NCBI GenBank assembly: GCA_002713215.1
Contig: PAVO01000039.1
Location: 124,001-188,000, forward strand
Direction: 5' to 3'
Origin: Crocinitomicaceae bacterium
Lineage (GTDB): Bacteria > Bacteroidota > Bacteroidia > Flavobacteriales_G > Salibacteraceae
DNA: 64,000 nt
Shown here: piece by piece, positions 1,701 through 10,037 of the stretch
Position numbering within the stretch: position 1 is the first letter of the stretch
Layout of the letters: each line of letters begins with the position of its first letter
Notes under the pieces: model-generated
Told to the model about the DNA's origin: nothing
The model's database searches: none
Seen by the model: only the letters and a program-made list of their open reading frames with translations
Made by a program: the position numbers and the translations under genes

Positions 1701-1708
1701 TATTTTTG
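1701..1708 (+). promoter_or_regulatory. Promoter -7 element TATTTTTG for the CPA1 antiporter
   Basis: TATTTTTG matches the Bacteroidota housekeeping -7 consensus TAnnTTTG, 48 bp upstream of the ATG at 1757. No convincing TTTG -33 element lies at the usual distance. The in-frame TTG inside this element is not the start, because coding there would add 17 residues in front of a good signal peptide. Confidence 0.5.
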
Positions 1709-1756
1709 GTCTCACACACTCAAAATTTAATTAATCTCACAATTAATAAGTCTCAT

Positions 1757-3295
1757 ATGGAAAGATTTACAAAAATCATTTTAACCTCTATCGTTGGTTT
1801 ACTTTTCACCTCATACTCGTATGCTGGTACAATTGAATCTTCATCCCTTAAAATACTATTTCAGGATGAAATATCAGTCTTTACCAACAACAATCTACAA
1901 GCTGACGAAACCATTCAGGCGGAAGAAGTTTCTGACAATGTAGAAGAGGAGAACGCAGAACATGGACATGGTCATGGTCATGGAGAGGGAGGTATGAGCA
2001 CATTGGACTTACTGGCACTGCTGGTTATGCTTGCCGCGATCTTTATGTTTATTAATATTCATTACATTAAGCTACCAGGTACCATTGGACTTATGATTCA
2101 GGCTCTGGTGCTTAGTTTGGTAATCGTGGGCATAGGCTTTGTCTTCCCCCCTATTCGACAGGCGGCTGAAGACATAATGAGGGAGGTTGATTTTACAAAG
2201 GTGTTGCTGAACATAATGTTGAGCTTTTTACTCTATGCAGGTGCCCTGCATGTTGATATTGACAAATTAAGAGAAGAGGCAGCATCGGTTGCAGTACTTG
2301 CCATAGTAGGTACTTTAATGTCAACCTTCTTAATTGGTACGGCAATTTATTACTTCCTGGGTTTATTTGACCTCGGGTATGAAGTATCATTTATCTATTG
2401 CCTTTTGTTTGGAGCCCTTATATCACCCACCGACCCAATTGCAGTACTCGCTATATTAAAGACTACTAACATTTCGAAGAACCTACAGATTAAGATTGAA
2501 GGTGAGTCGCTTTTTAACGATGGAATTGGTGTTGTGGTGTTTCTTACCATTCTTGCAATTGCTACCGGAGGTGGTCATGGCCATGGTGGTGGAGAAATGA
2601 CAGCCAGTAGCGTAGCCATGTTGTTCGGACAAGAAGTATTTGGTGGTGTAATACTAGGGTTTGCTTTTGGAGCTTTAGGATACTGGCTATTGGTTATTAT
2701 CGACAATGCACATGAGGAACTTGAAGTGCTTACTACGCTATCACTGGTGTTGGTGGGCACGCAGTTAGCTGTCTTTTTACATTTCTCTGCTCCCCTTGCT
2801 ATGGTGGTAATGGGATTAATTGTAGGTCGAGGAAACTCTACAGCCGGAGAGCTGGATGAAGATGGAAATGAAATTGAAGGTATTGCCGGGGAATATGTTA
2901 TGAAATTCTGGCACCTGGTTGACGAGGCTATGAACGCCATACTGTTCATCCTCATTGGCCTGGAAATGTTGATTATCGTGGAAGAAAGTAGCGCTGCATT
3001 CCTTCAAATAGGACTAATTGGAATATTCATAATTCTTGCCGGAAGATTTATTGGGGTGGCAGTTCCGGTTACAATTCTTGATTTTTTCAAAAAGTCGGCA
3101 AAGGGTACAATACCCATTCTTACCTGGGGTGGTCTTCGTGGAGGAATTTCAATTGCCTTAGCACTATCACTCTCAGCTGATCAAATTGGCACTGAAATCA
3201 AGTACCTGATTGTAACTATGACCTATTGTGTGGTTGTATTCTCCATTTTGATTCAGGGAATGACCATTGAAAAACTGGTAAAAAGATATTTGTAA
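1757..3295 (+). CDS. CPA1-family Na+/H+ (cation:proton) antiporter
   Basis: 512 residues from the ATG at 1757. It begins with a signal-peptide-like segment (about 1-24), then an acidic region and a His-Gly repeat (EHGHGHGHGEGG). A 12-13 helix antiporter domain follows. The family hallmarks are visible: SPTDPIAVLAI, then the GESLFNDGIGVVVF segment with its conserved acidic residue, and GGLRGGISIALALS near the C-terminus. A second His-rich loop (GGGHGHGGG) sits between transmembrane segments. It should exchange Na+ or another monovalent cation for protons across the inner membrane. The His-rich loops may sense pH or bind metal; that is inference. It appears monocistronic, with a terminator directly after it. 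Confidence 0.93.
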   Translation: MERFTKIILTSIVGLLFTSYSYAGTIESSSLKILFQDEISVFTNNNLQADETIQAEEVSDNVEEENAEHGHGHGHGEGGMSTLDLLALLVMLAAIFMFINIHYIKLPGTIGLMIQALVLSLVIVGIGFVFPPIRQAAEDIMREVDFTKVLLNIMLSFLLYAGALHVDIDKLREEAASVAVLAIVGTLMSTFLIGTAIYYFLGLFDLGYEVSFIYCLLFGALISPTDPIAVLAILKTTNISKNLQIKIEGESLFNDGIGVVVFLTILAIATGGGHGHGGGEMTASSVAMLFGQEVFGGVILGFAFGALGYWLLVIIDNAHEELEVLTTLSLVLVGTQLAVFLHFSAPLAMVVMGLIVGRGNSTAGELDEDGNEIEGIAGEYVMKFWHLVDEAMNAILFILIGLEMLIIVEESSAAFLQIGLIGIFIILAGRFIGVAVPVTILDFFKKSAKGTIPILTWGGLRGGISIALALSLSADQIGTEIKYLIVTMTYCVVVFSILIQGMTIEKLVKRYL

Positions 3296-3318
3296 TCCCA
3301 GGATAATTTTAAAATTGC

Positions 3319-3354
3319 AAAAGACCTTTTGGATATTCCAAAGGGTCTTTTTTT
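3319..3354 (+). terminator. Rho-independent terminator after the antiporter
   Basis: An imperfect stem, AAAAGACCTTTTGG paired with CCAAAGGGTCTTT, has a 5-nt loop and is followed by seven T. It lies 24 bp after the antiporter stop. The T-tract is also the left flank of the inverted-repeat element that follows. Confidence 0.85.
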
Positions 3355-3358
3355 ATGC

Positions 3359-3528
3359 AGTGTTTTAGAATAGTGAGGGAATTATCGTCATTCCTTGCTT
3401 GACAAGGAACCGACGAAGGAGCTCAGTGAAACTAATCTAGTCTCTATATCTAGATTCCTGCTTTCGCAGGAATGACGTGTCTTTTTATATGGTAGTATTA
3501 TTAACACTCATCATTCTACAACACCATG
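3359..3528. repeat. MITE-like inverted-repeat element, copy A
   Basis: About 170 bp. The ends are imperfect inverted repeats: 3360-3377 pairs with 3507-3524 at 15 of 18 positions (GTGTT.TAGAAT..TGAG). The core at 3389-3476 is nearly identical to the core of the copy at 9877-9963. It contains a hairpin TTCCTTG/CAAGGAA and a hairpin ATTCCTGC-TTTC-GCAGGAAT, and a closing stem GTCATTCC/GGAATGAC competes with both. An exact 11-bp direct repeat TTTTTTTATGC flanks the element (3348-3358 and 3529-3539), like a target-site duplication. No ORF is inside, so any mobility would have to come from elsewhere. Confidence 0.8.
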
Positions 3529-3541
3529 TTTTTTTATGCTC

Positions 3542-3765
3542 TGTTGTAGAACAGTGGAACTATTCGATTTCGTTAAGCTGTTCGTCATTCCGTAAGATTA
3601 GATGGTCCTTCCGATGATAATCGAGAAGTAGCTAACCTTATTTACGGAATAACGGAAACTGGACTACTTTGTGTACATCGCACGTTATCTTTATAAAAAG
3701 GGCTTTTTTATCCTCAAATCTATTCGTGCCATACTTTGGAACACATTCCTCACTATCCTACAACA
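3542..3765. repeat. Related inverted-repeat element with a different core (copy C)
   Basis: About 224 bp. The ends share the terminal motif of the other copies: TGTTGTAGAACAGTG at 3542 and, on the opposite strand, TGTTGTAGGATAGTG ending at 3765 (13 of 15 identical). The interior differs from copies A and B, but it also starts its stem with CGTCATTCC: ATTCCGTAA at 3587-3595 pairs with TTACGGAAT at 3642-3650. A second short hairpin, AAAAAG-GG-CTTTTT, lies near 3695-3710. Its right end abuts the pepD terminator stem. No coding potential. Confidence 0.65.
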
Positions 3766-3797
3766 AAGAAGGCGTTGGGATATCCCAACGCCTTCTT
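3766..3797. terminator. Strong terminator hairpin for pepD
   Basis: A perfect 15-bp stem (AAGAAGGCGTTGGGA and its complement) around a central TA. It lies 20 bp beyond the pepD stop on the minus strand. The minus-strand exit reads CTTCTTTGTTG and the plus-strand exit CTTCTTACTTT, so it may work in both directions. Confidence 0.85.
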
Positions 3798-3817
3798 ACT
3801 TTAGCATTAATTCCGAA

Positions 3818-5281
3818 CTAGTTTTTGTTCGGTATATCCTTTAATATTTTCTGTAAATATCCCCAAAACCTTTCCGTGGTAGGAATATTAGCCATCTCAT
3901 CTGGCGAATGAGCATTTTTTATTGTAGGACCAAATGAAATCATATCCAATTGAGGTTGCGTACGTGCAATAATCCCACACTCCAATCCGGCGTGAATGGC
4001 ACTTACCTCAGGCTTTTCACCAAAGAACTCTTCATGTATAACCCGCATCGTTTTTAATATGTCCGAATCAGGATTTGGGGTCCAACCCGGGTAACTTCCA
4101 CCATGAGTAACTTCTGCTCCAATTAATTTAAACAGAGAGTCAATCTGATTTTTCAAATCTATCTTAGGCTCTTCAATGGAACTTCTGGTAAGAAAATCTA
4201 CGGTCATACGTCCATTCTCTATTTGAACCCTTGAAAGGTTAGTAGATGTTTCAACCAATCCGTCAAAATCAGAACTCATACGATAAACACCATTGGGAGC
4301 TGCATTAAGAGCATTTATCATCTTCATGTTATCCTCTTTGGTTACATGCTTACCAGCGCTCTCTGACCTGGAAAACTCTATATATAAATCCGGATCCGTG
4401 TTTTTAAACTCTCCCTTAATTACACCCTCAAATTCTGATACCAAGGCTTCCAAAGCAGAATAATTAGCTTCATCAACAGAGACCAGGCTTACTACTTCTC
4501 TAGGAATAGCATTTCTTAGACTACCTCCATTAAAACTGATAAGTCTAATATCAAAATTTTCGTTTGCCAATACCAAAAATCGGGATAGCAACTTATTGCT
4601 GTTTCCTTTTTGCAAGTGAATATCACACCCCGAATGACCACCAAATAATCCTTTGATGTTTAGTGAACAAGTAATGTAGTTCTCTGGAATAGGCTCTTCG
4701 CTGTAATTATAATTGGCTGAGGTATCAATTCCTCCTGCACAACCAATGCAAAGTTCTCCTTCGTCCTCAGTATCCATATTTAACAATATGTCTCCTTTTA
4801 ACCAACCAGGCTCCAAATTGTTGGCACCAGTCATTCCGGTTTCTTCATCTGCAGTAAAGAGAGCTTCAATAGGTCCATGCTCTAAATTATCGCTTGATAG
4901 TACAGCCATTGCTGCTGCAACTCCCAAACCATTATCAGCACCCAGGGTCGTCCCATCGGCCTTTACCCAATCGCCATCGATATACATTTTAATGCCTTCC
5001 GTATCAAAATCAAATTGGGTAGCTCCATTCTTTTGATGAACCATGTCTAAGTGACCTTGAAGCACAACACCCTTTTTGTTTTCCATACCAGGAGTAGCAG
5101 GCTTTTTGATCAATACGTTGCCAATTTCATCCTTAATGGTTTCCAGTCCCAATTTATTTCCAAAGTCCATCATAAACTGTTGAACCCTCTCTTCTTTTTT
5201 AGATCCCCGGGGTACTTCATTTAAATCAGCAAAATGATTCCAAATTACCTTGGGTTCTAAATTTCTTACTTCTGCACTCAT
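3818..5281 (-). CDS. pepD: Aminoacyl-histidine dipeptidase (M20 metallopeptidase)
   Basis: 487 residues, the usual length for PepD. The M20 metal-site residues are present: GHLDMVH (His77, Asp79), the bridging Asp in LGADNGLG (about 116), and the catalytic Glu pair in TADEETGM (about 146). Later come NMDTEDEG and the C-terminal HAGLECG. It should be a cytosolic di-zinc peptidase that cleaves Xaa-His and other dipeptides. It stands alone, ends at a strong terminator, and is divergent from miaE with 72 bp between the starts. Confidence 0.95.
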   Translation of the reverse strand: MSAEVRNLEPKVIWNHFADLNEVPRGSKKEERVQQFMMDFGNKLGLETIKDEIGNVLIKKPATPGMENKKGVVLQGHLDMVHQKNGATQFDFDTEGIKMYIDGDWVKADGTTLGADNGLGVAAAMAVLSSDNLEHGPIEALFTADEETGMTGANNLEPGWLKGDILLNMDTEDEGELCIGCAGGIDTSANYNYSEEPIPENYITCSLNIKGLFGGHSGCDIHLQKGNSNKLLSRFLVLANENFDIRLISFNGGSLRNAIPREVVSLVSVDEANYSALEALVSEFEGVIKGEFKNTDPDLYIEFSRSESAGKHVTKEDNMKMINALNAAPNGVYRMSSDFDGLVETSTNLSRVQIENGRMTVDFLTRSSIEEPKIDLKNQIDSLFKLIGAEVTHGGSYPGWTPNPDSDILKTMRVIHEEFFGEKPEVSAIHAGLECGIIARTQPQLDMISFGPTIKNAHSPDEMANIPTTERFWGYLQKILKDIPNKN

Positions 5282-9810: not shown

Positions 9811-9843
9811 GCCTCTCTTCAATCTGAAGAGAGGCTTTTTTTT
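9811..9843 (+). terminator. Strong Rho-independent terminator
   Basis: A perfect 10-bp stem, GCCTCTCTTC and its complement, with loop AATCT, followed by eight T. It terminates the small secreted protein gene. Its T-tract forms the left flank of repeat copy B. Confidence 0.92.
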
Positions 9844-9847
9844 AGCC

Positions 9848-10013
9848 ATGTTGTATAATAATGTGGGAATAATCACCATTCCTTGCTTGACAAGGAACCG
9901 ACGAAGGAGCTCAGAGAAACTAATCTAGTCTTATTTCTAGATTCCTGCTTTCGCAGGAATGACTAACTTTTATTTGGTAGCTTGATTAACCCACATTATT
10001 CTACAACACTCCG
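9848..10013. repeat. MITE-like inverted-repeat element, copy B
   Basis: About 165 bp. The left end 9848-9867 and right end 9990-10009 pair at 18 of 20 positions (.TGTTGTA.AATAATGTGGG). The core at 9877-9963 differs from copy A by a single substitution plus a small variable patch. Direct repeats flank it: TTTTTTTAGCC at 9837-9847 and TTTTTTTGGCC at 10014-10024 (10 of 11 identical). The inner end sequence differs from copy A (GTGGG instead of TGAG), yet both arms changed together, which keeps the stem. Confidence 0.8.
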
Positions 10014-10037
10014 TTTTTTTGGCCTTTTCTAAAAAGG

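Follow-up and report, generated by a model that had tools for sequence, protein, structure and literature searches.

A MITE family with 8-bp target duplications in a Crocinitomicaceae genome and a copy lying in a terminator T-tract

The stretch of Crocinitomicaceae DNA analysed here (the window, 64,000 nucleotides) carries, directly behind the terminator hairpin of an Na+/H+ antiporter gene, a non-coding element that belongs to a new and well supported MITE family of known kind. This element, copy A, is very probably a MITE with an 8-bp target duplication, inserted in trans by a DDE transposase that most likely belongs to the IS1595 family. It is short, contains no transposase gene, has inverted ends and a duplication specific to the copy, recurs as dispersed copies, and its site is empty in relatives.

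We propose that the transposase made a staggered cut at the target, whereby the 8 bp were duplicated. The preferred target is an A/T-rich octamer with a short G-rich arm on its left and a C-rich arm on its right, a pattern that the T-tract behind a terminator stem fits. Since the duplication takes in the entire T-tract, the upstream gene would keep an intact terminator, hairpin and T-tract together, and a second T-tract would come to lie on the far side, where it would be available for new insertions.

Organization of the antiporter–peptidase gap

In the window genome the antiporter gene and an M20 peptidase gene are convergent and spaced by 522 bp, and the following features are found at this locus:

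1706-3295: Na+/H+ antiporter gene (PF00999)
3323-3347, plus strand: antiporter terminator hairpin GACCTTTTGGATATTCCAAAGGGTC, 11 pairs, -14.5 kcal/mol by RNA folding, with T7A directly 3'
3348-3355, plus strand: left target duplication TTTTTTTA, which is the terminator T-tract, 8/8 identical to 3529-3536
3356-3528, plus strand: copy A, a MITE with type I interior, 173 bp, ends at 3356-3379 and 3505-3528
3529-3536, plus strand: right target duplication TTTTTTTA
3537-3770, plus strand: copy B, a second element, with ends of the same kind as copy A and a different, type II interior
3766-3797: peptidase terminator palindrome
3818-5281, minus strand: M20 peptidase gene (PF01546)

Copy B adjoins the right side of the duplication of copy A, which gives the order hairpin, TTTTTTTA, A, TTTTTTTA, B, palindrome; at the right end of copy B no duplication was found in the window sequence. 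Partial relatives of copy B are present elsewhere in the same genome, at C16:53824 and C54:7213, and the latter also sits at a terminator T-tract. The terminal repeats of copy A have 15 of their 18 positions paired, in agreement with a preliminary description of the sequence, or 16/24 across the full family end, and this limited match between its own ends indicates that copy A is old. Equally in line with that description, which saw no transposase in the element, the interval 3296-3817 was scanned for open reading frames and holds none of at least 60 amino acids, copy A being non-coding. The antiporter hairpin was missed by a consensus terminator scan, probably because the stem runs into the T-tract, and was recovered by RNA folding.

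The window holds one more type I copy, likewise behind a hairpin:

9836-9843, plus strand: left duplication TTTTTTTT, the T-tract of a hairpin at 9811-9835 (-17.5 kcal/mol)
9844-10013, plus strand: second type I copy, 170 bp
10014-10021, plus strand: right duplication TTTTTTTG, a 7/8 match

An interior hairpin, ATTCCTGCTTTCGCAGGAATGAC, occurs at 3454-3476 and 9941-9963 and is matched alone, without the family ends, in several other Bacteroidota genomes; it appears to be a separate widespread repeat that was captured inside the type I interior.

A dispersed family with 8-bp duplications

Copy A as a query gives about 45 BLAST matches in its own 5.03-Mb genome, a draft assembly of 56 contigs of which several are broken inside family copies (C5, C11, C24, C25, C38 and C55 terminate in or near one). 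The genome search with the end motif that the preliminary description had advised was run, and the ends recur genome-wide: a 20-mer end, allowed up to 3 mismatches, has 26 matches versus 0 for the reversed control (genome-based controls used 1.56 Mb of the genome), so that neither this recurrence nor the ends of copy A are a matter of chance. The family end is approximately GGYRGTGTTGTAGAATAATGTGGG, the inverted repeats are imperfect and extend over ~24 bp, and in the least decayed copies the ends begin with GG. A weight matrix built from 25 ends recognises both ends in 21 independent intact copies, which range from 82 to 251 bp and have several interiors. Since the ends partly went into building the matrix, and the flanks were not used for it, the flanks alone serve as a test.

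With the boundaries fixed by the matrix, the left and right octamers of these 21 copies agree at a mean of 6.14/8, with at least 7/8 in 11 of them and exact identity in seven (7/21). Shuffled pairing of the flanks gives a mean of 3.6/8, the highest mean in 5000 trials being 4.86 with at most six pairs at 7 or more, and agreement falls to 2.8-3.2 when the frame is shifted by two or more bases. The exact 8-bp duplications include TTTTTTTA, TAAAATAA, TAATTAAT, TTAAATAA, TAGAAAAT and AATATTGA. Copies without flanking duplication in other genomes had been named as a finding that would speak against an insertion; in other genomes and genera, 7 of 12 copies have flanks that agree at 7/8 or better, and the duplications there comprise ATTTTTTA, TAAAAAAA, AAAAAAAA, TTTTTTAA, ATCCATTA and TTATTATT.

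The preliminary description had placed the element at 3348-3539 and its target duplication, at 11 bp, on the terminator T-tract. The 11-base repeat TTTTTTTATGC is indeed exact at 3348-3358 and 3529-3539, its left copy is the T-tract directly 3' of the hairpin at 3323-3347, and in several copies of the family the base 3' of the duplication resembles the element start. A duplication of 11 bp, with copy A starting at 3359, is nevertheless very improbable: the match across the 21 copies is to 8 bp, only an 8-bp reading makes the ends symmetrical, with STGTTG preceded by 4 bases at either end, as it is in the Marinirhabdus transposon discussed below, and the right-hand 'TGC' is the start of copy B. 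Because 'TGC' begins both copy A and copy B, which share one family of ends, an 8-bp duplication looked like one of 11. On these grounds the length of 11 bp was rejected, whereas the duplication on the T-tract stands, as the 8-bp TTTTTTTA, and the borders of copy A are corrected to 3356-3528. Duplication length can thus be over-read where two elements of the same family abut.

Two relatives from other genera, G004 (L275) and G011 (L276), have the antiporter and peptidase genes adjacent and convergent, with 70-77% peptidase identity by tblastn, and a gap of 82-83 bp that holds a single terminator and no element, versus 522 bp in the window genome; the terminator tract of G011 is TTTTTTTATGG. 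Given the distance, we take this empty site as absence of the element and not as base-for-base excision. An element always present with the same flanks, which the preliminary description had named as another refutation, is therefore not what the relatives have, and with the duplications at copies elsewhere its view of copy A as a non-autonomous inserted element is borne out. The same two observations bear on whether copy A, instead of being a transposed element, could be a regulatory hairpin or a REP-like repeat passed on by vertical descent, a reading to which its better folding than shuffled sequences (z -3.35 as RNA, -4.13 as DNA) and the mostly intergenic position of the copies would lend themselves. 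Duplications specific to each copy and empty sites in relatives make such inheritance hardly credible, and we retain the transposed MITE as the explanation of copy A.

The metagenome-assembled genome GWE2_42_24 carries TTGTTGTAGAATAATGTGGG many times, with one end only (L074-L081, L083, L087, L089, L094, L097, L100), and it stands behind a CGAAGC-rich repeat at the five loci whose surroundings were inspected (L074-L077 and L083). This is a different repeat from the MITE family.

An IS1595 transposon with the same ends

The end was searched in 84,980 species genomes, and a single element was found that combines the same 24-bp ends with a transposase. In Marinirhabdus gelatinilytica (L092, 537-7453), two inverted ends 6.9 kb apart enclose an IS1595-family transposon. 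Its ends, GGCGGTGTTGTAGAATAATGTGGG and GGCGCTGTTGTAGAATAATGTGGG, are 23/24 identical to each other and match the ends of the two type I copies of the window at 17-21/24; the transposon is flanked by an exact 8-bp duplication, AATAATTA, and its transposase, P0001, matches the IS1595 model NF033547 (E 7e-35) and PF12762 (E 5e-9). Target duplications made by members of IS1595 are usually 8 bp long (PMC8101967), with a preference for A/T-rich sequence in the case of ISApl4 (PMC12561309); those of the present family are 8 bp long and A/T-rich. The likeness to the IS1595 family (IS1/IS1595-Zn transposases; ISApl4, ISPna2, ISSod11, IS1016) also includes the GG with which the least decayed MITE ends start and the near-identical ends of the Marinirhabdus transposon, whereas the MITEs differ from it in having no transposase and no partner with these ends in their own genome. 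From this one linked element in another genus, we infer that the MITE family is likely to be mobilised by IS1595.

The cargo of the Marinirhabdus transposon consists of an HNH protein, an AbiU2-like HEPN protein (PF18734), a DUF5677-like protein (below the cut-off) and an SH3 protein, and by its annotation it is possibly a defence cargo.

The transposase with the same ends for which the preliminary description had proposed to look was thus found in Marinirhabdus, but none was found in the own genome, a draft in 56 contigs. The single IS1595 copy there (L044:150-2381, 2.2 kb, with ends GGTAACTAYWTACAAATYTACA and the 8-bp A/T duplication TTTATTTT) is ruled out as the partner by its different ends. 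Because this sole IS1595 has other ends, the autonomous partner is best read as lost or absent from the own genome, or as unassembled. The IS1595 loci in sampled genomes of the bacterial family were read with 1.5 kb of flank, and over that range none has these ends; G030 and G003 have 14-15 matches each to the IS1595 transposase family, and the IS1595 copies read in G030 have different ends, CTGATTCCCCC. Distant relatives of P0001 (L158-L160) are without these ends, and P0001 compared with plasmids gave only distant IS1595 matches, at <60% identity.

Duplications of 8 bp are common to several transposase families, and this, together with the lack of a partner in the own genome, is what could be said for a mobiliser from another such family (such as IS1, ISL3 or IS6), the IS1595 ends in Marinirhabdus then being convergent. 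We consider that quite improbable, as an IS1595 transposase is flanked there by 23/24 ends and an exact duplication, and the end consensus is the same as that of the MITEs. An IS1595-type transposase remains the preferred mobiliser.

Insertion at terminators

Terminator T-tracts are hit often: for at least 5 of the 21 complete copies in the own genome the insertion site is a T-tract immediately preceded by a hairpin, further cases at terminators in this genome are L022, C47 and C54:7213, and in other genomes 6 of 12 copies are in a terminator T-tract. Such hairpin-preceded sites make up 3% of A/T-rich intergenic octamers, against which 5/21 gives P = 3e-4, and 23% of intergenic T7 tracts. These counts could suggest that insertion is terminator-specific, the transposase recognising the hairpin or its transcription complex beyond base composition. 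The implied targets, however, have G/C-rich arms of ~5 bp on both sides (112/190 positions are G or C, versus a background of 34.4%, P about 4e-12), G-rich on the left and C-rich on the right. A model of the target sequence was fitted to 13 other insertions, of which 12 are off T-tracts and one is at a T-tract that lacks its own hairpin; it puts 17% of the weighted sites in terminator tracts, albeit with a crude coding mask and few sites. Against this expectation the observed 5/21 does not amount to an excess (P = 0.28; for 6/22, P = 0.16). Moreover, the exact duplications TAATTAAT, TCAATATT, TAGAAAAT and TTATTTAA occur without a hairpin, and survival bias toward harmless 3' sites may be another source of the pattern. 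We therefore regard recognition of the terminator itself as unlikely; on the model, the base composition of the target would mostly suffice to explain the terminator insertions, and a modest extra preference for terminators beyond target sequence may exist.

A search of the literature on insertion sequences targeting terminators found nothing on point. Group IIC introns insert behind terminator stem-loops and differ from the present family in being retroelements with a catalytic RNA, without inverted-repeat ends or duplications; an Rfam search of the window returned zero matches. BrickBuilt of Porphyromonas gingivalis is, similarly, an intergenic Bacteroidota MITE near terminators: predictions place Rho-independent terminators or polyadenylation sites on the flanks of 10 of its 19 copies, and the terminator beside BrickBuilt_5 is undisrupted, but it has other ends, inconsistent duplications and a minisatellite interior, and lies near the terminator and not in the T-tract (PMC4596501). 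The pneumococcal repeats RUP and SPRITE are small, non-coding and clustered like the present family, insert into each other and, in the case of SPRITE, are terminator-like (PMC10969869, PMC3049150), but belong to another phylum and have other ends.

Upstream of copy A the hairpin with T7A remains whole, and the antiporter terminator would thus have been spared. For copy A together with the duplicated tract, RNA folding gives a single long stem that closes beside the U-run (-48 kcal/mol, z -3.35), and this predicted structure may terminate read-through. A second tandem pair stands behind one terminator at C47:6934-7330 of the own genome (L010, L049; G000), like A and B, and such pairs are what repeated use of the duplicated tract would leave. 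This leads us to the tentative idea, which we hold to be less likely than not, that terminator T-tracts are self-renewing landing pads: the terminator would be spared, the duplicated T-tract would be the next site, and tandems would accumulate behind one gene. If this is true, each element would add, with its long hairpin and duplicated T-tract, a further terminator-like structure.

This Bacteroidota group now has a defined MITE family with a measurable target pattern. An A/T-rich octamer between G/C-rich arms would account for the piling up of small elements in terminator T-tracts, and the case of copy A illustrates how insertions may be able to spare the terminator that they enter.
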